DNA of 29,932 nt from a virus, in the IMG/VR virus record IMGVR_UViG_3300038627_000004, positions 1 through 29,932 of that record. One strand, 5' to 3'. The notes beneath the pieces were generated by a model that saw only the letters and a program-made list of their open reading frames with translations, was not told the DNA's origin and did not search any database. How positions within the stretch are numbered: position 1 is the first letter of the stretch; every line of letters begins with the position of its first letter. The translations under genes and the position numbers were made by a program. Shown one piece after another: positions 8,224-29,932 of this stretch.

Positions 8224-8385
8224 ATGAAAGCCTACAAATTAATAGTACAGGACATTTTCGGAAATGAATACCCCGAGGTGGTATACGCCGGGGACAAGAA
8301 GGCAGCCGAGAACATCGTGATGCATAACCCGCTTAATGCCTCAGTTATCGCCATCAACAGAACGTCTGAAAACCGGAAGCTATAG
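8224..8385 (+). CDS. hypothetical 53-residue protein
   Basis: A 53-residue protein beginning MKAYKLIVQDIFGNEYPEVV follows an AAGAAAGGAG site 19 bases after the methyltransferase stop. It looks like a small alpha/beta domain and ends in a basic tail. The stop codon overlaps the AGGAGG ribosome binding site of the radical SAM gene, so the two are tightly packed in one operon. No family is recognised. Confidence 0.65.
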   Translation: MKAYKLIVQDIFGNEYPEVVYAGDKKAAENIVMHNPLNASVIAINRTSENRKL

Positions 8386-8395
8386 GAGGGCCGCT

Positions 8396-9256
8396 ATGTA
8401 TTTCCCATGGGATAAATATAAGGAGATCCCCCTGGAGCGCCGGAACACGCTGCAGATATTCATTACCAACAAATGCAATCTCAAGTGCAGAGGGTGTTTT
8501 GCCCGTCACGTAATGCGGAGCGACGGCACTTTCATCTCATTCGAGGAGTACAAGCAGGCAATCCGCACATTCATTGCCCGGGGCGGGCGGCAGGTCAACT
8601 TGCTTGGGGGAGAGCCCCTATTGCACCCTAATCTGCCGGCCCTCATACGGCTAAATCGGGCGAAGGGGCTGTCAACCACAATATACACTAATGGCCGACT
8701 ACTCGACAAATGGCTCCCCCAGGACATCCAGGGTGCAAAGCTCAGGGTGTCTATGTGCTCCGCGGATATGCCCGTCAAGTCAGCGTTCAAGGTTCCTGAA
8801 AACCCGCACAGATTCGACGCTAATTATATGATGTCTGCTGGAACAACAGTGCAGGACCTCCTCGACGCCGCCGATTATTTCGAAAAAAACTTTCCGCTGT
8901 GTGGAAAATTTTTTGTTTTTTCGATGCGCGAAATGGATAACCCCCGTCGAGAATTTTTCGACGACACGGAGAACACCCCTTCTTGCTTCCAATATAAAGA
9001 GATCGTCCACCAATTTCTCAACGCATACGAAGGTAACCTGAAAATTGACATATCAAAACGGGGCGTTTTTGAGAGTACTAAAACCCTGCCCGACAATAAA
9101 TGCAGGTTCGCGAATTATTTTATAGGCGGTAAAATAATACAGTGCCCGTTCGACGTCGTTAACCTCAAATACCAACGGGGGTATGCCTTTGGGGCCCGGA
9201 GCTGCAGGCAAAACAACACCTGCTTAATGAGTAAAATTAAACTGATACGCCGATGA
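8396..9256 (+). CDS. radical SAM enzyme
   Basis: This 286-residue protein has the CxxxCxxC motif that binds the 4Fe-4S cluster of radical SAM enzymes (C27, C31, C34 in CNLKCRGC) and the SAM-binding GGEP motif at 71-74. The C-terminal part has four more Cys (around CRFANYF, IIQCPFD, SCRQNNTC), which could ligate an auxiliary cluster as in twitch/SPASM-type enzymes. Start is the ATG 7 bases after GGAGG; a longer frame to 8336 lacks a site and overlaps the previous gene. It uses SAM to form a 5'-deoxyadenosyl radical; the substrate is unknown. Its place next to a DNA methyltransferase suggests nucleic-acid or peptide modification, as inference only. Confidence 0.9.
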   Translation: MYFPWDKYKEIPLERRNTLQIFITNKCNLKCRGCFARHVMRSDGTFISFEEYKQAIRTFIARGGRQVNLLGGEPLLHPNLPALIRLNRAKGLSTTIYTNGRLLDKWLPQDIQGAKLRVSMCSADMPVKSAFKVPENPHRFDANYMMSAGTTVQDLLDAADYFEKNFPLCGKFFVFSMREMDNPRREFFDDTENTPSCFQYKEIVHQFLNAYEGNLKIDISKRGVFESTKTLPDNKCRFANYFIGGKIIQCPFDVVNLKYQRGYAFGARSCRQNNTCLMSKIKLIRR

Positions 9257-9516
9257 AACACCCACGGTGGACAACAGCGCTCCTGGCGGTGCTCATTGCT
9301 GACAGCCTCATCACCATCTATATAGGCGAGGAGGCATCGCCCATAATCCTGTGGGTTATGGGTGCTCTCAGGATTAATCTCAGAGAGGCTATGGCGCTCC
9401 GCATTATATATTTAGCTCCGCTGGTGGCGGTGGTTGACCGGTACTACAGGCCCGGAGTGGTGTTATTCTGCTATCTGGCACTGTATTTTTTAGGCGGCCT
9501 GATCACCTGGAGCTAA
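9253..9516 (+). CDS. multi-pass membrane protein (DUF5658-like)
   Basis: The 87-residue protein is coupled to the radical SAM gene by an ATGA overlap. It has three hydrophobic segments (about residues 8-25, 28-55 and 65-84), with an Asp in the first (LIADSLITIYIG) and a Glu followed by SPIILW. This pattern resembles small DUF5658-type membrane proteins, an assignment I hold weakly. The tight coupling suggests it works with, or is made in proportion to, the radical SAM enzyme. Confidence 0.6.
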   Translation: MKHPRWTTALLAVLIADSLITIYIGEEASPIILWVMGALRINLREAMALRIIYLAPLVAVVDRYYRPGVVLFCYLALYFLGGLITWS

Positions 9517-17203: not shown

Positions 17204-17641
17204 TCATACTCCTGTTGATCCGAACCCGCCGAGGCCCCGCGGGGTCTCGGTGAGCTCGTCTACAATTTTCACGCGGCGATCGCATGCCCGCAGGATAACC
17301 AGTTGCGCGATGCGGTCCCCACGCCTCACCCCATAGATGAGACCCCCGTGGTTGACCAGGATGACCCCGATTTCCCCTCGGTAATCCGCATCGATGATCC
17401 CGGGGGAGTTGAGGACAGTAACCCCGTGTTTAGCGGCCAGACCGCTACGCGGGCAGACCTGGGCCACATACCCATGCGGCAACTCCACGGCCCACCCGGT
17501 GGGTACGGTTCGGCTCTCCCCAGGCCGGAGGGTCACATCCTCCCGCGAGCATATGTCCAGTCCTGCAGCTTGTGGGGTCTGGTATTGGGGTGCGGGGAGT
17601 TTGGGTTCCCTGGTGTCCATCCGTTTAAATTTTACCGTCAT
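17204..17641 (-). CDS. dut: dUTPase
   Basis: The 145-residue enzyme hydrolyses dUTP to dUMP and pyrophosphate, keeping uracil out of phage DNA and feeding dTMP synthesis. All five trimeric dUTPase motifs are present: AAGLDIC (25-31), PRSGLAAKHG (64-73), GIIDADYRGEI (81-91), RGDRIAQL (107-114) and the C-terminal RGLGGFGSTG (135-144). Length is exactly that of the family. It lies between the repeat protein and the DUF2800 gene and is translated from an AGAGG site. Confidence 0.95.
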   Translation of the reverse strand: MTVKFKRMDTREPKLPAPQYQTPQAAGLDICSREDVTLRPGESRTVPTGWAVELPHGYVAQVCPRSGLAAKHGVTVLNSPGIIDADYRGEIGVILVNHGGLIYGVRRGDRIAQLVILRACDRRVKIVDELTETPRGLGGFGSTGV

Positions 17642-18358: not shown

Positions 18359-18427
18359 AGGGTCTAAATTAGCACAAAAACCTAAACCCCGCACAACCTA
18401 AAAACCTAAAAAGGAGACGAACAGACA

Positions 18428-18607
18428 ATGGATAGCGAGGGAAAAATAGTAAGTTGCCGATTCGACCCGGAGGATTATCAATGGCTGCAGAGGGTTAAAG
18501 CCGTCCTGCAAAAAGGCAACGTGGGGACCGTGACGGATTCTGCGATCCTGCGTGATCTCGTGAGAAATGCGAAACAGGGTGAAATCTATGGGAAAATCGA
18601 AGGGTGA
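18428..18607 (+). CDS. 59-residue ribbon-helix-helix-like protein
   Basis: This short gene starts 10 bases after AAAAAGGAGA and encodes MDSEGKIVSCRFDPEDYQWL followed by a helix and TVTDSAILRDLVRNA. A short N-terminal strand, then two helices with TDSAILRDLV in the second, is the layout of ribbon-helix-helix DNA-binding proteins. As the first gene behind the inverted-repeat operator it could be an autoregulator of the divergent promoters, which is inference. Its 3' end overlaps the start of the PrimPol gene by 20 bases. Confidence 0.65.
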   Translation: MDSEGKIVSCRFDPEDYQWLQRVKAVLQKGNVGTVTDSAILRDLVRNAKQGEIYGKIEG

Positions 18608-20729
18608 TTTGAAAATCCTCTTGGACCTGGGCGCCAAACTGTTCCCCGTGAACCCCAAGCGCAAAATCCCTATACTCAAAGGGTGGCAGGATATTGCTAC
18701 ATCGGATGTGGATCGGCTGAAAACCTGGTCGCAGGAATACCCCGGTTGTGGCTGGGGTGTCGCCTGCGGTCCCTCCGGGCTCCACGTGGTAGATATCGAC
18801 GGGGTGAACGGTGAGCTGTCCGTCCTGGACAAAGATCTCCCACCCACACTCGAGGTCGAAACTCAATCTGGAAACCGACACCTATATTATAGGGCCGAGA
18901 CCGCATCCCGTAATAGGGCACTGCCCGGCCTGGATATAAAATCCACTGGTGGTCTGGTGGTCGCTCCGGGGTCGATGGGATACCGCATTGTGCATAGGCG
19001 CGGGATTGCTCCTGCTCCGGCCTGGTCGGTGGAACTCGCCGGCGCGTCCACTAAAAAAGAGCGTGACACAATCGTTCTGAGCGAGGACGATCCGGGAGAC
19101 CTTGAAAGGGCGATGCGCTGGCTCGAGGACTCAGCCCAAGGTTCGATTGAGGGCGAAGGGGGCAACGATAATGCTTTCCGCGTCGCCTGCCAGGTGCGGG
19201 ATTTTGGCGTCTCTGAGGGCATGTGCCTGGAATCAATGATGGGCGCTTGGAATGATCGGTGCGAGCCCCCCTGGGATTTTGGGGACCTGGCAAAGATTAT
19301 TGAAAACGCATACCAATATTCGCGGGGCGACCAGGGGGAGCTGTCGGCCCCAGAAGATTTTGACGCGGCCCCATCCGAAAACGAAATAGAAACCCTCCGG
19401 ATACGGGACGCAGAAACGCAGCGGCCGCCACTGATCGACCGCATGAATGCTCGGCATGCGAAAATGCCTTTTGGTGGAAAAGTCGTCGTCTGGGCGCAGG
19501 AGACCAACAGCGACGGGACCCTCGAATACCGTCCGTACTCGTGCCAGGATTTCGACAAAGTGTACGAGCACAGAAACGTGCCCGTAGAAGGCGCCGACGG
19601 AAAAATAAAACCGGTCCCGTTGGGTAAATGGTGGCGTCTCAACCCCAAACACATGCGCTGCAATCGGCTCGTGCTGGACCCCACGCTGCCAACCGGGCCG
19701 ACGGAGATGGGGGGAGCATTCAATTTGTGGCGTGGGTGGAAAATAGATCCAGTCAAGGGGGACTGGTCTGACTACCAGCGGATCGTTACCGATGCCCTGT
19801 GCGCCGGCGACAAAGCGCATGCGGGCTACATCCTCGATTGGATTGCTCTACTCCTGCAGCAGCCTACCACACTGCACAAATGTGCAATTGTTTTTCGCGG
19901 GAAAAAGGGGACCGGAAAATCCACTCTCGGGCTGGCGCTCAAAATGATATTGGGGGGCCACGCCGCTAAGGCCGATACTGCTAAGGCGATTGTCGGCCGG
20001 TTCAACTGGCATCTGCGCGATAAGGTTTTTCTGCTGGCGGAGGAGGTCCGGTGGATGCAGGACCGCGGCGGCGAAGGTGTCCTAAAATCCCTCATAACCG
20101 ACCCCGAACGGAGCTATGAGGCCAAGGGGCTCAACATAGTTGATGGGGCTAATCACATATCCCTCATGATAACGACCAACGATGATTGGGCGGTTCCGGC
20201 GTCAGCGGATGAGAGGCGTTTTGCCGTTTTCGATGTTGATGATTGCCTGATTGGTGACAGGGCACTGTGGGATCGGTTATACTCCCCCGGCGGCACACTG
20301 CGGACTGAACCGATTGCGGCGTTTATGCATGCGATGCTGGCCAGAGATATCTCCCAATTTAGCCCGATTCGAAATGCCCCAAAAACTCAGGCGCTGGCGG
20401 AGCAGGCATTCGAAAGCCTGGATTACATAGACAAATGGTGGTTCGACCGTCTGTCAACTGGGCAGCCCCCGGGGATGTCGGAGGAGAGCTGGCACACCAA
20501 CGATTTAGCGATCCCCACTGCGGACACATACGACGATTTTGCGATGACAGTGCCCCGTGGGAGGCACACTCCCAGCAAGCTAACCCTGGGCCGGCGTCTG
20601 CACAATTATGGAGTCCGTCGTAAGCGGATACGGGGGGATAATGGCCTGCAATACGTCTGGACAGTCCCAATTTTGGAGGAAGCGAGGAAAACTTTCGAGA
20701 CAATATTTAACAAAGAAATCGATTGGTAA
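18588..20729 (+). CDS. PrimPol-helicase (DUF5906/D5-like)
   Basis: The 713-residue protein combines a primase-polymerase with a replicative helicase. The N-terminal PrimPol domain (1-160) shows KLFPVNPKRKIPILKGWQ, VVDIDG, SGNRHLYYR and GGLVVAPGS. A linker follows, then an SF3-like ATPase with Walker A GKKGTGKST near 440, Walker B-like VFLLAEEVRW near 480, sensor TTNDDW near 528 and the DERRFAVFDVDD motif near 540. It makes primers and unwinds DNA for the family A polymerase. The ATG at 18588 follows AGGGTGA; an in-frame ATG at 18567 has no clear site. Confidence 0.92.
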   Translation: MGKSKGDLKILLDLGAKLFPVNPKRKIPILKGWQDIATSDVDRLKTWSQEYPGCGWGVACGPSGLHVVDIDGVNGELSVLDKDLPPTLEVETQSGNRHLYYRAETASRNRALPGLDIKSTGGLVVAPGSMGYRIVHRRGIAPAPAWSVELAGASTKKERDTIVLSEDDPGDLERAMRWLEDSAQGSIEGEGGNDNAFRVACQVRDFGVSEGMCLESMMGAWNDRCEPPWDFGDLAKIIENAYQYSRGDQGELSAPEDFDAAPSENEIETLRIRDAETQRPPLIDRMNARHAKMPFGGKVVVWAQETNSDGTLEYRPYSCQDFDKVYEHRNVPVEGADGKIKPVPLGKWWRLNPKHMRCNRLVLDPTLPTGPTEMGGAFNLWRGWKIDPVKGDWSDYQRIVTDALCAGDKAHAGYILDWIALLLQQPTTLHKCAIVFRGKKGTGKSTLGLALKMILGGHAAKADTAKAIVGRFNWHLRDKVFLLAEEVRWMQDRGGEGVLKSLITDPERSYEAKGLNIVDGANHISLMITTNDDWAVPASADERRFAVFDVDDCLIGDRALWDRLYSPGGTLRTEPIAAFMHAMLARDISQFSPIRNAPKTQALAEQAFESLDYIDKWWFDRLSTGQPPGMSEESWHTNDLAIPTADTYDDFAMTVPRGRHTPSKLTLGRRLHNYGVRRKRIRGDNGLQYVWTVPILEEARKTFETIFNKEIDW

Positions 20730-21574: not shown

Positions 21575-21619
21575 TTATAAATAACCATGAACGCAAACAA
21601 CAACATAAAGGGGGAAATC

Positions 21620-22162
21620 GTGACAAACTTTATCGAATTGAAAGCTGCGGAGCACAGGCATCTATTTAACCAGGTTAGCTTTTGTGCCAGTGCGCTAGAC
21701 AAGAAAGCAAAGCGTGTTTTTAAAAAACGGTTGTATGTCAATGGTAGGTGTATGATGGGAACTAATGGTAAGCGACTGCACCACGTACGTCTTGTGGATC
21801 GCCTTTTTGGAAACGGCGTGTATAAGGTGATGAAGCACACTAAAACTGTCATTCACTGCCTGCAGACGCCCGAGGACGTAACATATCCTGATGTTAAAAC
21901 TATTTTCCGGGAGATAAAGTCGGACTATGATGAGGTGTGGTGTAAATTGGAGGTTTTGGAAAATGACGACTTTAACAAATTTGTGTTCGCCCTTGCACGT
22001 GCTTTGCCGGGTGAAGATCATTGGTTTGATATCGAACATCTAAAGCCTCTGATCGGTCACCATTGGGATATTTGTGTTCGGGTGAACCAGGGAGAAAAGC
22101 CCTTAGTGGCAAGGAATAAGGACAAAACTGCCTTTATAATGCCGAGTGGATTGGAAAAATAG
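21620..22162 (+). CDS. beta-clamp-like protein, copy 1
   Basis: The 180-residue product begins VTNFIELKAAEHRHLFNQVS (GTG start after AAAGGGGGA). LYVNGRCMMGTNGKRLHH resembles the G-R-x-x-x-T-D/N-G-x-R-L segment of DnaN sliding-clamp domains, and the C-terminus ends AFIMPSG, like the IMPM end of DnaN. At about half the length of DnaN it could be a shortened clamp or a clamp-fold protein; this assignment is tentative. An in-frame ATG at 21587 sits at the predicted transcription start. A paralogue at 23222 shares identical stretches. It is controlled by the sigma-54 cassette upstream. Confidence 0.6.
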   Translation: MTNFIELKAAEHRHLFNQVSFCASALDKKAKRVFKKRLYVNGRCMMGTNGKRLHHVRLVDRLFGNGVYKVMKHTKTVIHCLQTPEDVTYPDVKTIFREIKSDYDEVWCKLEVLENDDFNKFVFALARALPGEDHWFDIEHLKPLIGHHWDICVRVNQGEKPLVARNKDKTAFIMPSGLEK

Positions 22163-23176: not shown

Positions 23177-23221
23177 TTATGAATAACCATGGACGCAAAC
23201 AACAACATAAAGGAAAATAAA

Positions 23222-23782
23222 ATGACAAACCTTGTCGAATTGAAAGCTACGGAGAATAGGGAACTGTTTAATCAAGTAAGCTTTTGTGCCGGTGCGCTGG
23301 ACAAGAAGGCAGAGGATCTTTATAAAAAACGGTTGTATGTCAATGGTAGGTGTATGATGGGAACTAATGGTAAGCGACTGCACCACGCACGTCTCAGGTG
23401 GCGTTTTTTTGGAAACGGCACGTATAAATTGATGAAGCACACTAAAACTACCATTCAATGTGTGCGGATTTATGAGGACATAAAGTATCCTGATGTTAAA
23501 ACTATTTTCCGGGAGATAAAGTCGGACTATGATGAGGTGTGGTGTAAATTGGAGGTTTTGGAAAATGACGACTTTAACAAATTTGTGTTCGCCCTTGCAC
23601 GTGCTTTGCCGGGTGAAGATCATTGGTTTGATATCGAACATCTAAAGCCTCTGATCGGTCACCATTGGGATATTTGTGTTCGGGTGAACCAGGGAGAAAA
23701 GCCCTTAGTGGCACGGGGTGGGGACAAAACTGCCTTTATAATACTGAATAGACCGCAACAATATAAATATAAAGGAGAATAA
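23222..23782 (+). CDS. beta-clamp-like protein, copy 2
   Basis: The 186-residue paralogue of the gene at 21620 begins MTNLVELKATENRELFNQVS after AAAGGAAAA. The stretch of about 228 bases around 23485-23712 is identical to 21885-22112, and a second near-identical block covers the VNGRCMMGTNGKRLHH region; the segments between and at both ends differ. The C-terminus reads AFIILNRPQ instead of AFIMP. The clamp-fold assignment is tentative. The two copies appear to be kept alike by recombination while their ends diverge. Confidence 0.6.
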   Translation: MTNLVELKATENRELFNQVSFCAGALDKKAEDLYKKRLYVNGRCMMGTNGKRLHHARLRWRFFGNGTYKLMKHTKTTIQCVRIYEDIKYPDVKTIFREIKSDYDEVWCKLEVLENDDFNKFVFALARALPGEDHWFDIEHLKPLIGHHWDICVRVNQGEKPLVARGGDKTAFIILNRPQQYKYKGE

Positions 23783-24337: not shown

Positions 24338-24814
24338 ATGGAGATAACAAAAGAAAATATCCATGAATTAATCGGAGAGGGAAAACTCAGGTTCGGTGAA
24401 ACAATGCTTGAATTTGCCAACAGACAGAATTTCCAAGCAAAAAAAACTTTAGTTCTATGGGGTTTTAATGCTTCTTCGCAGTACTGTTTCGAAGCCAGTG
24501 GTAGCACCCGGTATGTGTACGCTCGTTTCCCCGTACCAAATCCTGCGTTAGGGTTAAAAGATGGAGATCCGGTGATCTGTTTGAACGGGGCCTCAAATAT
24601 AATGGAGCACAGAATCGTTAAAAAATGGAAACCTAAGTTTCCAGAGATTGTCATCATCTACCCTGACGGGCTAAATAGATGGACAGATGTGCGGAACTAC
24701 TATCAAAGATGCTCGCCGGGTTACTGGAGAATTCCAACTCCAGATGAACTCGCGGAACAGGGATTTCCGATGGATTATTACACCAAAAGGAGCAGGCAAA
24801 ATGACCAAATTTAA
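24338..24814 (+). CDS. hypothetical protein
   Basis: The 158-residue protein starts MEITKENIHELIGEGKLRFGETML, with aromatic strands (YCFEASGSTRYVYARFPVP) and an Asp/Trp/Tyr-rich end. No family is recognised. It begins three bases after the previous stop, behind GAGGAGG, and its last 14 bases overlap the start of the next gene. Confidence 0.6.
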   Translation: MEITKENIHELIGEGKLRFGETMLEFANRQNFQAKKTLVLWGFNASSQYCFEASGSTRYVYARFPVPNPALGLKDGDPVICLNGASNIMEHRIVKKWKPKFPEIVIIYPDGLNRWTDVRNYYQRCSPGYWRIPTPDELAEQGFPMDYYTKRSRQNDQI

Positions 24815-25175
24815 AAATGGCCAAGAGGTTGAGTGTTTTGATCATGGGGATAAAGAGTGGGTGATAGCGGACTATGCATGTCCACATCCGAAGATAAAGG
24901 GCAAGCACGTCATATGGACATCTATGGATAGATTGGTGGTGATCGCAGAACCCGATATTAGGCACCTTCCATTGCCAGATTGGCCGATGGACCACCCTAT
25001 TGAGGTTTCGCGCGATGGCGATGTCTGGATACCTGCCCATTTTAAGAGGTGGGGCAGGGACAGGCGTGCGGTTGTCTGGGACCACGGTCGTACAACGCAC
25101 ACCGGGGCAAAAACTGAGAAGTATCAATATTATCGGGAAAACGAAAAGGAGCAAGTAAAAAATGACCGAATTTAA
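24801..25175 (+). CDS. tandem paralogue family, copy 1
   Basis: The 124-residue protein begins MTKFKNGQEVECFDHGDKEW behind AAAGGAGC. Predicted beta-strands with D-x-x-W-V-I and GRTTHTG motifs suggest a small SH3-like or tudor-like barrel (inference). The last 14 bases overlap the following paralogue at 25162 and the first 14 overlap the preceding gene, so all three are translationally coupled. The longer frame from 24687 has no site and is not used. Confidence 0.65.
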   Translation: MTKFKNGQEVECFDHGDKEWVIADYACPHPKIKGKHVIWTSMDRLVVIAEPDIRHLPLPDWPMDHPIEVSRDGDVWIPAHFKRWGRDRRAVVWDHGRTTHTGAKTEKYQYYRENEKEQVKNDRI

Positions 25176-25515
25176 AAACGGCCAAGAGGTCGAGTATTTT
25201 GATCGTGTATCTAATGAGTGGGTGATAGTGGACTACACATGCCCACATCCGAAAATAAAAGGCTGGCACGCCATATGGGCACCTATGCGTGGATTGGTGA
25301 TAGTCGCAAAAACCGAGATTAGGCATATCCCATTGCAAGATTGGCCGACGGACCACCCTATTGAGGTTTCGTGCGGTGGTAATTTCTGGGTACCAGCCCA
25401 TTTTAAGGGGTGGGGCGAGGATGGGTGTGTGGTTGTGTGGGCCGGCGGTCGTACCTCGCACAGCGGGGCGGCAACCGAGGAATATCAATATTATCGGGAA
25501 AACGATAGGGGGTAA
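25162..25515 (+). CDS. tandem paralogue family, copy 2
   Basis: The 117-residue protein (MTEFKNGQEVEYFDRVSNEW) is clearly homologous to the gene just before it along its whole length, including CPHPKIKG, DHPIEVS, PAHFK.W and GRT.H.G. The spacer and ribosome site (AAAAGGAGCAAG) are also copied, as is the 14-base overlap, so the gene arose by tandem duplication with its translation signals. The function is unknown. Confidence 0.65.
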   Translation: MTEFKNGQEVEYFDRVSNEWVIVDYTCPHPKIKGWHAIWAPMRGLVIVAKTEIRHIPLQDWPTDHPIEVSCGGNFWVPAHFKGWGEDGCVVVWAGGRTSHSGAATEEYQYYRENDRG

Positions 25516-26624: not shown

Positions 26625-27017
26625 ATGAAAATGTATAAAATCAAAAAAAATTCGGGAATGTTGCAATTTAGAACCGGGAAAGGCAACTATGTTGTCCCGG
26701 GCAACATAGAAGCTGAATGCAATATACAAATTGAAGGCACCCTCCGAATAGAGGGAAGCCTGGATGTATATGAAATCAGTGCGGTGAACCTATTCGTCAG
26801 CCGGGACGTTGACGCTGACGCCGTCAGCGTGACAAACCTTGTCGCCAGGGATATATTTGCCATGAATCTTTGTGCCCAAAATGTTGTCAGCCGGGACGTT
26901 GACGCTGACGCCGTAGACGTGGCGGAACTCCTTGTCGCCAGGGATATAGATGTCATTAACCTCCGTGCCAAAAATGTTGTCTATACCGGAAAGCTATACG
27001 GCGCCACGCCGAGCTAA
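26625..27017 (+). CDS. beta-helix-like repeat protein, copy 1
   Basis: The 130-residue protein shares its first 40 residues (M-x-x-Y-x-I-x-x-N-S-x-M) with the next gene. It then has degenerate five-residue repeats such as SRDVDADAV, which occurs twice, and LVARDI. Small interior residues alternate with aliphatic ones every five positions, as in right-handed quadrilateral beta-helices of pentapeptide-like proteins. It may form a rod or polymer. GAGGAGACC precedes the ATG. Confidence 0.65.
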   Translation: MKMYKIKKNSGMLQFRTGKGNYVVPGNIEAECNIQIEGTLRIEGSLDVYEISAVNLFVSRDVDADAVSVTNLVARDIFAMNLCAQNVVSRDVDADAVDVAELLVARDIDVINLRAKNVVYTGKLYGATPS

Positions 27018-27029
27018 GGAGACCAATTT

Positions 27030-27488
27030 ATGAAAACCTACGTAATTGAATCGAATTCGGAAATGGAACGGTTCCGAAGCGAGGATGGCAGTTATGAAGT
27101 CATCGGCAACCTGAGCGCGAATTGTGGCATAAATATTAATGGGGATATCCACGCCTGGGATATCAAGGCCAGAGATATCAAGGCCAGAGATATCAAGGCC
27201 AGAGATATCCATTGTGTCGTGAACATTGACGCCAGGGATATCTCTGGCCTGGATATCTGCGCCTGGGACATTAAGGCCCGGGATATCTGCGCCAGAGATG
27301 CCGAGGCCCGGGATATCTGCACCAGAGATATCGACGCCCGGGATATCTGCGCCTGGGGCGTTAAGGCCAGGGATATCGACGTCAGAGATGCCGACGCCGA
27401 TAGCATTCACGCCCGGGACGTTCACGCCCGGAAAGTCGTCGCCCCAGACATTGATGTCATGAACCTATATTATAATGAGGGTCATTGA
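27030..27488 (+). CDS. beta-helix-like repeat protein, copy 2 (xARDI repeats)
   Basis: The 152-residue protein has the same N-terminal domain as its neighbour (MKTYVIESNSEMERFRS), followed by about 17 five-residue units with consensus x-A-R-D-I (KARDI, CARDA, EARDI, DARDI). Pentapeptide-repeat proteins fold as a square beta-helix and some mimic DNA (MfpA, Qnr); the motif here is not the canonical A-D/N-L-x-x, so only the fold class is inferred. The DNA carries tandem 15-base repeats rich in GATATC. The gene closes the accessory region. Confidence 0.7.
   Translation: MKTYVIESNSEMERFRSEDGSYEVIGNLSANCGININGDIHAWDIKARDIKARDIKARDIHCVVNIDARDISGLDICAWDIKARDICARDAEARDICTRDIDARDICAWGVKARDIDVRDADADSIHARDVHARKVVAPDIDVMNLYYNEGH
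27143..27378 (+). repeat. 15-bp tandem repeats with GATATC
   Basis: The unit GATATC(A/T)AGGCCAGA and variants (GATATCTGCGCC) recur in the second beta-helix-like gene, with many exact GATATC hexamers. Three copies at 27158-27205 are nearly identical, indicating recent expansion. Confidence 0.75.
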
Positions 27489-27661
27489 CCTCGTTTGTTC
27501 CCCTTGTTCCCCCTCTGTTCCCCTTTCTTTCGTGGAAAGGGGAACACGTAACCCTCCGAATCTATTAGGCATAGTGCCTTTGTTCCCCTTTTTCCCCTTT
27601 TTTTGATGTTTCAACTTCTTTATATTTTTTCGGTGTGTGTTTTTTTTAGGATTGCAGGTTT

Positions 27662-27690
27662 TTTACACATAGCTTTTTTATATATAGTAT
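27662..27690 (+). promoter_or_regulatory. possible sigma-70-like promoter before the terminase
   Basis: TTTACA (27662-27667) is followed after 17 bases by TAGTAT (27685-27690) in an AT-rich stretch. It could drive the terminase genes. The -10 box is a four-of-six match, so it is weak evidence. Confidence 0.35.
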
Positions 27691-27787
27691 TATACTTTAA
27701 ATAGGAACAATAGGAACAATAGGAACAATATAGTAATATCAATAATTTAGCTGTTCCCCTTTTGTTCCCCTTGTTCCCCTTTGTAAG

Positions 27788-27865
27788 TTTTTTGCATTGC
27801 AGGTTTTTTGCATTGCAGGTTTTTTGCATTGCAGGTTTTTTGCATTGCAGGTTTTTTGCATTGAG
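27788..27865 (+). repeat. 16-bp tandem repeats
   Basis: GCATTGCAGGTTTTTT is repeated four times in full with a fifth partial copy (GCATTGAG), period exactly 16. A related single copy, ATTGCAGGTTTTTT, occurs at 27651-27664. There are no unique spacers, so this is not a CRISPR array. Confidence 0.85.
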
Positions 27866-27952
27866 CCACACGGATGAGGGAAATGGTCTATTCTGCCGCA
27901 CGGACGATGGGGGTTATTTTAGTGGGCGCTGATAAAGCTCTTTACAGATAAT

Positions 27953-28678
27953 ATGCCAATGTGGTATGGATTGTGCATGAAATATACATTTCCAAAAAAT
28001 GCCGTCTTGGATGCAGTCATCGAGGACGTTAGGGCGCACGGCGACATAAACCTATCCGCGGACCGGGCCGGCGTTGAGCCCTTTCGGATCCGTGGCCTTT
28101 TAACCTACGCCGGCGATGACCCCCAATTGATCGAGGCCTCTACCGCTCTGCAGCTCGCCCAAGTAGAGGGCAAGCACAATCAAAAAAACTATGCCAAGCA
28201 GAGGTTCCTAAGCACGCTTGAGAGACGTGCATCTATATCCGAGGCTGTGGCATCCCAACCGTGGTACACTAAGAGTTTTTTTGAAACCTGGAGGATGAAA
28301 GACGTTGAATTTGACCGTGCTTGGTGTGAGGCGATTGAAAGAGCTGTTGATGGCCTACGGAGCGAAGCCTGGCGCCGCGGTGCTGAGGGCATTGATGAGC
28401 CCGTCACTCACCTGGGGCACTACTGCTATGACGAGGACCCCGACACCGGGCAGAAGCGCCAGGTCGTCATTCGAAAATACTCGGACGGCCTTCTGACAAC
28501 ACTCCTCAAACGCTATGACCCAGCATTCAGGGAGCGCATGGGTGTTGACCTATCCGCATCTGTTGAGGGCGGGTTGACCCAGGACGCAGCCATGAAGGCC
28601 CTTGGAGAACTATCCCCCGATGAGCTGTCCTCACTGTCTAAACTCCTCGACGTGGCCGAGACCGATGAACCTGACTGA
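27953..28678 (+). CDS. terminase small subunit
   Basis: The protein has up to 241 residues; MKYTFPKNAVLD from the internal ATG at 27977 is an alternative start, and neither has a strong ribosome site. It has an N-terminal helix-turn-helix-like region (LSADRAGVEPFRIRGLLTYAG), a coiled helical middle, and RKYSDGLLTTLLKRYDPAFRER, a segment typical of small terminases that bind the packaging site. It lies directly before, and overlaps by 14 bases, the large-subunit gene. It recognises DNA for packaging. Confidence 0.8.
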   Translation: MPMWYGLCMKYTFPKNAVLDAVIEDVRAHGDINLSADRAGVEPFRIRGLLTYAGDDPQLIEASTALQLAQVEGKHNQKNYAKQRFLSTLERRASISEAVASQPWYTKSFFETWRMKDVEFDRAWCEAIERAVDGLRSEAWRRGAEGIDEPVTHLGHYCYDEDPDTGQKRQVVIRKYSDGLLTTLLKRYDPAFRERMGVDLSASVEGGLTQDAAMKALGELSPDELSSLSKLLDVAETDEPD

Positions 28679-29932
28679 AACTAAAATAGGTCAGATACTT
28701 CAGACGGCGCCACACCTGATCAGGGCCGAGGCGTGCCGTCGGTCTCTGTTTGAGTTCACCCGGGAATTTTGGGGCGAGATCATAGATGAGACGCCCGTTT
28801 GGAACTGGCACATCCCATACATATGCACTGAGCTCGAAAATGTGCTCTGGCATGTGATATCGAGGGAGCGCAAGCCATACGACCTCATCATAAATGTGTC
28901 GCCGGGCACAACTAAAACAACTATTTGCTCTGTTATGTTTCAGGCTTGGTCCTGGATAGCTCGGCCGCCAGCTGGCATGTTTCCGACAGTCGAAAAGATA
29001 TGGGCGCATAAAACGCGCGGAACCGATGAGGACCCACGGCCGAAAGGTTTTAATCTAAGACACATCACGGGCTCATACGCCCTTGATATAACACTCAAAA
29101 ACTCCTCGAACTCTCGTGACATAATCAGGTCTGAGAAGTACGAGAAATATTTTCCGGAAGTCCAACTCCGTTTGGACCAGGATGCCAAATCGGATTATTC
29201 CAACACCCTCAAGGGCTCCAGGTTCTCTACCTCGGTAGGCGCCAAGGTCATGGGGACGCATGCTCATGTGATCACCATAGATGACCCCGTGGACCCTGAA
29301 CAGGCCTTATCAGACGTTGCACGGTTGAGGGCCAATGATTTTATGGACAACCTCAACACCCGTACTGTGGACAAGCGGCTGACGCCCCTTATCCTCATTA
29401 TGCAGCGGTTGCATGAGGATGACCCAACAGCGCATGTGCTCAAACGCCGCAAAAATGTTCGGCTTATTAAATTGCCGTGCGATGATAGCTGGGACGTTCA
29501 ACCGCCTGAATTGCGAGAGCGATATGCAGACGGGCTTTTTGATCCGGTCCGCATGCCGCGTGAGGTGCTCGACGATCAGAAACGGATCCTCGGGTCATAT
29601 AAATATGCCGGCCAGTTTGGTCAGGACCCACGACCGCGTGAGGGCGGCATGTTTCAGAAACAATGGTTCGAGATCGTCGATGCCGCCCCCGATGGCGGGC
29701 CCGAGATACGTGGATGGGATCTGGCCGCATCCAAGAAAAAGCGGGGCTCAGCCGGTGCAACACAGGCGGCCACTGCAGGCATCAAGCTAAAAATTGTTGG
29801 GGGCCAGCTCCTCGACGGCAAATTGGTCGGTGGCACCGTCTACATAGTAGATGACGTCAACCTATTTGGCACATCCGGCCAAGTTCGAAAAACAATGCGG
29901 GCCACAGCGAGCCGCGACGGCGTCGAGTGCAT
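28665..29932 (+). CDS. terminase large subunit (partial, open at window edge)
   Basis: The frame from ATG 28665 (MNLTETKIGQILQTA) stays open for at least 422 codons to the window end. It shows the packaging-ATPase P-loop NVSPGTTKTT near residue 86, Walker B VITIDDPVDP near 205, the coupling motif LIMQRLHEDD near 245 and, in the nuclease half, GWDLAASKKKRGSAGAT near 350. Together these identify a phage terminase large subunit, which pumps DNA into the prohead and cuts it. The C-terminal end lies outside. Structural genes are likely to follow. Confidence 0.9.
   Translation, partial: MNLTETKIGQILQTAPHLIRAEACRRSLFEFTREFWGEIIDETPVWNWHIPYICTELENVLWHVISRERKPYDLIINVSPGTTKTTICSVMFQAWSWIARPPAGMFPTVEKIWAHKTRGTDEDPRPKGFNLRHITGSYALDITLKNSSNSRDIIRSEKYEKYFPEVQLRLDQDAKSDYSNTLKGSRFSTSVGAKVMGTHAHVITIDDPVDPEQALSDVARLRANDFMDNLNTRTVDKRLTPLILIMQRLHEDDPTAHVLKRRKNVRLIKLPCDDSWDVQPPELRERYADGLFDPVRMPREVLDDQKRILGSYKYAGQFGQDPRPREGGMFQKQWFEIVDAAPDGGPEIRGWDLAASKKKRGSAGATQAATAGIKLKIVGGQLLDGKLVGGTVYIVDDVNLFGTSGQVRKTMRATASRDGVEC

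Follow-up and report, generated by a model that had tools for sequence, protein, structure and literature searches.

An iteron array laid out like P4 ori1 is the probable replication origin of a phage with a PrimPol-helicase

The stretch of DNA analysed here (the window) is a virus record of 29,932 bases, a fragment of an incomplete genome. Genes for a SNF2-type helicase, a DNA polymerase and an exonuclease lie on one strand and a PrimPol-helicase followed by the terminase on the other, an order like that in RDJL Phi 1 and the Bradleyvirinae phages DoCa5 and ZQG1. Just 5' of the DNA-packaging genes are about 370 non-coding bases (27489-27863) that form the candidate origin region. The preceding ORF ends at 27488. 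The gene for the terminase small subunit (TerS) begins at 27953, unless an in-frame ATG further along (27977) is its true start. A minus-strand ORF of 93 aa (27620-27901) is built from the repeats and is probably spurious. The locus and the genes considered with it are as follows.

18567-20729, plus strand: PrimPol-helicase (Prim-Pol PF09250, PriCT_1, DUF5906; predicted C-terminal winged helix), the proposed iteron-binding initiator
27496+, 27505+, 27516+, 27539-, 27581+, 27752+, 27763+, 27772+: exact TGTTCCCC sites
27496-27597: left iteron set, comprising the first five exact sites (the inverted one at 27539-27546) and the one-mismatch copy TTTTCCCC at 27590+
27516-27546, plus strand: hairpin in which the third direct iteron pairs with the inverted one, with a 13-bp stem and a 5-nt loop
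27600-27751: AT-rich stretch between the two iteron sets, up to 85% AT, a candidate melting region
27700-27730, minus strand: three tandem 9-bp repeats (AATAGGAAC)
27752-27779, plus strand: right iteron set, the last three exact sites, 32 bp past the last near-iteron
27787-27863, plus strand: 16-bp tandem array of GTTTTTTGCATTGCAG
27953-28678, plus strand: terminase small subunit (phrog_4044), the next gene after the repeats
28602-29930, plus strand: terminase large subunit (phrog_38 and others), cut by the contig end

Several other features of the fragment were recorded. Two adjacent genes before the repeats (26625-27017 and 27030-27488) consist of 15-bp coding repeats encoding five residues, like 'ARDID/ARDIC', and the second has no Pfam or PHROG match. 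Recent gene duplications are seen as a 361-bp tandem duplication at 24798-25505 and as a similar gene pair about 1.6 kb apart (21587-22162 and 23189-23782). In the early region, the ORF at 8336-9256 has a CxxxCxxC motif (NKCNLKCRGCF) and, judged by eye, looks like a radical SAM enzyme.

The repeat region is dominated by TGTTCCCC. The original prediction, made from the sequence, spoke of at least seven copies; we count eight exact copies in 27496-27779, seven direct and one inverted. The whole 30 kb holds ten, only two of them beyond the array, where shuffling gives 1.77 per whole window (s.d. 1.14, maximum 4), and a local scan of 27489-27952 scored 8.5 against 3.0-4.5 in six shuffles. The hairpin that had been proposed around the inverted copy is present, but its stem measures 13 bp rather than 11 bp (arms 27516-27528 and 27534-27546; -16.1 kcal/mol, z -5.2). 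The remaining elements were also correctly foreseen: an AT-rich stretch that peaks at 85% AT (27660-27699, against 48% overall), three tandem copies of AATAGGAACA with a period of 9 within that stretch, and a 16-bp array of 4.8 perfect copies, which has a degenerate partial copy near 27650 and perhaps provides unwinding or accessory sites. The reverse-complement relation noted between GGAACA and TGTTCC holds as well, the AATAGGAACA 10-mers containing three inverted near-iterons, TAGGAACA, at 27702, 27711 and 27720. An Rfam search gave no match, and among the matches listed in a literature search for TGTTCCCC there were only unrelated sequence matches.

The layout of the left iteron set is almost exactly that of the mapped origin of the satellite phage P4, and the repeat region is therefore most likely where replication starts. 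The P4 record (NC_001609) annotates an 'ori type 1 repeat', TGTTCACC, that is one base apart from TGTTCCCC. The six iterons of ori1 begin at 9310, 9320, 9331, 9353, 9396 and 9406, at offsets of 0/10/21/43/86/96 (spacings 10, 11, 22, 43, 10), whereas those of the window are at 0/9/20/43/85/94 (spacings 9, 11, 23, 42, 9), the fourth site being inverted in both. All six positions thus agree within 2 bp, with one mismatch in one of the window sites. The match is positional, because every site is flipped: the window reads +++-++ for TGTTCCCC and P4 reads ---+-- for TGTTCACC. As a result, the window has converging sites across the 23-bp gap and diverging sites across the 42-bp gap, which is the reverse of P4.

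Other elements of the two regions correspond more loosely. Both have AT-rich DNA, although in the window it is beside rather than inside the left iteron set. At a distance of about 100 bp, P4 has 'type 2 repeats', a tandem of three 10-bp units, and the window has three tandem 9-bp repeats; that these are counterparts is a guess. The second iteron set and the 16-bp array of the window have no equivalent in P4 ori1. P4 itself has two iteron regions, ori1 and crr, and no crr-like second cis region was found in the 30-kb fragment of this incomplete genome. P4 also offers a precedent for the suggestion, made in the original prediction, that one protein uses sites in both orientations.

The protein proposed to bind the sites is the PrimPol-helicase, whose best PHROG is 1156 'DNA primase'. 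Its helicase family, DUF5906 (PF19263), is common to the window protein (E 9e-19) and P4 alpha (E 2.5e-9), which favours the origin reading, and its helicase part matches the solved primase structures 6k9c/6k9e. The primase parts differ, being an archaeo-eukaryotic PrimPol (PF09250, PriCT_1) in the window and a Zn-ribbon (PF08273) with Toprim in P4 alpha; the PrimPol N terminus weakly matches pRN1 ORF904. BLASTP detected no similarity between the window PrimPol and P4 alpha, and hhalign gave a weak match between the helicase cores. Single-protein pattern searches of viral contigs returned no close relatives of either the PrimPol or TerS.

A C-terminal winged helix has been solved for P4 (1ka8, the origin-binding domain) and is predicted for the window protein. 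The last 173 residues of the PrimPol, modelled together with 19 relatives, adopt a winged-helix-like fold, with high confidence in that part. The model aligns with 1ka8 (Z 4.5, r.m.s.d. 2.4 A over 67 residues), which had the lowest r.m.s.d. listed, among the winged helices of RFX, ORC2, Cdt1 and Orc1/Cdc6; such Z values alone are not proof of kinship. A plain Foldseek search with the model gave no match under E 0.001. We count the predicted fold and its alignment with 1ka8 in favour of an origin.

Taken with the one-base difference between the repeats and the agreement of the six positions, these predictions and comparisons make it likely that 27489-27863 is an iteron replication origin of the P4 ori1 type that is bound by the PrimPol-helicase of the phage. 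Against this reading we count the flipped orientation relative to P4, the lack of BLASTP similarity to P4 alpha and the weak hhalign match. The 7 kb that separate the PrimPol gene from the repeats also count against it, as do a GC skew that turns elsewhere, the relatives that have no strong clusters and the occurrence of TGTTCCCC with initiators of other families (below).

The skew minimum is at 17563 (about 17.6 kb). Near it, AAAAACCT repeats at 18376-18412, in the divergent intergenic region 5' of the PrimPol operon, could represent an operator or a second origin. Replication might thus begin elsewhere, for example in this region at about 18.3 kb, with the array serving as an auxiliary (crr-like), partition or recombination site. 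P4 has both ori1 and crr, and several prophages have two clusters, which speaks for such an arrangement. However, the turn in skew near 17.6 kb falls where the coding strand changes, the repeats at 18.3 kb are short and are not accompanied by a mixed-orientation array, and the layout of the window array is that of ori1 rather than of crr. We regard an origin elsewhere as very unlikely.

For an origin at the array, further evidence comes from other replicons. Viral and genome contigs were scanned for spaced TGTTCCCC triplets, and many loci were found. Direct-only triples were dropped as evidence, a scrambled word giving 12 against 14 for TGTTCCCC, whereas in the mixed-orientation scan the scrambled word gave 3 matches against 13. 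Those three are not clean negatives, because they too fall in replication modules: L211 is by a DUF927 gene, L219 by a VapE-DUF5906 gene, and L220 is a near relative of L219. Mixed layouts of the form '++ 23 - 32/33/41/55 +++' or '+++ 13 - 41/42 ++' occur in Xanthobacter, Roseospira, Paracoccus and viral contigs, '+ 23 - 42 +++' in a Bacillota contig and '++ 42 - 24 +++', the order seen in P4, in another viral contig. The gaps that recur are 13/23 and 32-33/41-42/55 bp, in steps that differ by about one helical turn, although this geometric argument leans partly on related prophages and on loci picked by TGTTCCCC itself.

The neighbours of the mixed loci include DUF927, DUF3987-Toprim, VapE-like and PrimPol-AAA_25 proteins, terminase genes and integrases. 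Searches by tblastn with primase-helicase families gave a match at 6 of the 16 mixed genome loci and at none of the 59 direct-only loci (Fisher 4e-5, or 2.5e-4 when only non-self matches are counted). This recurrence of mixed clusters beside primase-helicases supports the origin reading. The word alone cannot name the binding protein, because TGTTCCCC also occurs with initiators of other families. In 2.86 Mb, a motif-free search for any 8-mer in a direct-inverted-direct arrangement with one more tandem copy found 27 loci, and shuffled copies of the same DNA yielded none; as most of these loci had been preselected by pattern, the result shows how rarely the arrangement arises by chance and should not be read as an unbiased survey.

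Other TGTTCCCC clusters were of different kinds. The class of 8-bp tandem (TGTTCCCC)n arrays was set apart, its members being located within genes for replication initiation that belong to another family. These perfect arrays, in viral contigs L002-L120 (for example L005:8738-8761 and L018:8757-8804), sit near codon 140 of genes starting MxRIRSIKPEFW (phrog_2149 replication initiation protein), with 62 of 105 loci fitting this description, and resemble an origin of the lambda O kind, located within the initiator gene. In seven contigs (L056, L030, L122, L127, L138, L124 and L216), an iteron cluster is at or about 30 bp past the 3' end of an integrase gene, and in some of these another cluster lies close to replication or terminase genes, an arrangement reminiscent of crr and ori1 in P4. 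Three Oscillospiraceae genome contigs (L165, L186 and L197) have mixed clusters next to genes for which no role in replication is evident, and these clusters represent either another element type or dispersed repeats.

We also looked at phages whose PrimPol-helicase is 24-29% identical to that of the window or was found by the same search. Exact mixed clusters above shuffle level are present in RcRudolph (GGTCGGAC, nine copies), RDJL Phi 1 (GCTATACA, seven), RHph_X2_30 (CTTGGACC, eight), MJing1 (CCCTGACC, six) and VP2 (TGTCCACC, six). Allowing one mismatch adds ZQG1 and K227 and, weakly, DoCa5, FP1, PaMx28 and BPP-1. Two of these, RDJL Phi 1 ('+ 22 - 44 +++') and ZQG1 ('++ 21 - 56 ++'), have the layout of the window in other iteron words. 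Among 30 relatives from the alignment search, most (Pamexvirus-like) have no strong exact clusters, so such clusters are common, though perhaps not universal. The same scan returned nothing in lambda, T7 or HK97 and a single cluster in P22, inside the annotated rep_origin; the annotated pac was not flagged. Both the clusters of the relatives and the behaviour of the scan on these reference phages argue for an origin.

The original prediction had left the choice between an origin and a pac site. The origin half is borne out by the near-identity to the P4 ori1 8-mer and its site positions, by the primase-helicase neighbours of similar clusters and by the predicted winged helix of the PrimPol; the pac half is not. 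A pac or cos region, in which the small terminase subunit would bind the repeats and packaging would start, is suggested by the position of the repeats directly 5' of TerS and by clusters that adjoin terminase genes in MJing1, ZQG1, BPP-1 and contigs L006, L123 and L217. However, the clusters of the relatives are not tied to TerS, lying about 5 kb from the gene in RDJL Phi 1 and 19 kb from it in RHph_X2_30, and for this reason packaging is the less likely role. In addition, the scan missed the P22 pac while finding the P22 origin, bacterial loci have clusters beside DUF927-type primases, and the spacing matches that of a replication origin, P4 ori1. We therefore consider a packaging site unlikely, although a pac site could still overlap or adjoin the origin.

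The location 5' of TerS would also be compatible with a transcriptional control region, a set of operators governing either the initiator or the late packaging genes, and two overlapping promoter-like matches are found in the AT-rich stretch. Yet such matches are near chance (4 against 1.5 expected), and some homologous clusters are 3' of integrase or primase genes. Nor would an operator explain nine sites with the spacings of a mapped origin across elements of several bacterial phyla, and this role is highly improbable.

If the array is indeed a replication origin, initiation could proceed as follows. The C-terminal winged helix of the PrimPol-helicase would bind the 8-bp TGTTCCCC sites, and their fixed pattern of direct and inverted copies would set up a higher-order complex of one or more SF3 helicase rings. 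The AT-rich stretch between the left and right sets would then melt, the PrimPol domain would prime synthesis, and the region would serve as the in vivo origin. With six sites on the left of an AT-rich core and six on the right, three of these exact and three near-copies, the arrangement would fit two hexamers.

The origins of phages with a primase-polymerase fused to an SF3 helicase appear largely unmapped, and the window array suggests how a whole class of them picks its origin. The P4-like array and those of the relatives together make a testable origin model for many phages, such as VP2/phiVC8, Bradleyvirinae such as ZQG1, RDJL Phi 1 and perhaps BPP-1. More broadly, and more tentatively, it is a real possibility that phages, satellites and prophages of several phyla share a conserved 'spacing code', and that in AEP-PrimPol phages replication starts from iteron arrays instead of the stem-loops proposed earlier. 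The code would consist of direct 8-mers 9-11 bp apart with one inverted copy between them, placed about one or two helical turns from its neighbours on one side (13 or 21-24 bp) and about three, four or five turns on the other (32-33, 41-44 or 55-56 bp), and it would span different helicase families and iteron words (TGTTCCCC, TGTTCACC, TGTATAGC and GGTCCGAG). Such arrays also allow candidate origins to be sought by spacing, free of any motif. If the word varies while the spacing is kept, the word and the recognition residues of the winged helix can be compared as a coevolving pair.

Among known systems, the replication proteins of plasmid pRN1 and phage BIP-1 combine, as does the window protein with its predicted winged helix, an AEP primase, an SF3 helicase and a winged helix (PMC4234260). 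The sole proposal found for this initiator class favours a stem-loop without iterons: no iteron origin was found in pRN1/BIP-1, and a large stem-loop just after the replication gene was proposed (PMC4234260). The window array instead consists of iterons 7 kb 3' of the PrimPol gene with a 13-bp hairpin inside, and is not a stem-loop of the pRN1/BIP-1 type; the presence of both hairpin and iterons may reconcile the two views. For BIP-1 we used BPP-1, which has been called nearly identical to it (PMC4234260). Two copies of TTGCCTCG and two of its inverse, 9 bp apart on each side, flank an AT-rich core between the PrimPol and terminase genes of BPP-1 (L270:26607-26710), with a score barely above that of shuffles. 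From its sequence, this is a candidate origin that is not described in PMC4234260.

For SaPI Rep and SCCmec Cch2, short repeats located at or close to the helicase gene are bound by the helicase itself (PMC7581432). These origins have few iterons (three for Cch2), with no P4-like spacing reported in PMC7581432, and SaPI Rep binds as two hexamers, according to work cited there. The origins of E. coli PICIs (pri-rep-ori, PMC6092414) are alike in layout, with two iteron sets around an AT-rich region as in the window, and this likeness adds to the case for an origin. PICIs are satellites, whereas the window belongs to a tailed phage that encodes a terminase and a DNA polymerase of its own; PICIs replicate by means of the element's own primase-helicase (PMC6092414), as we propose for the phage described here.
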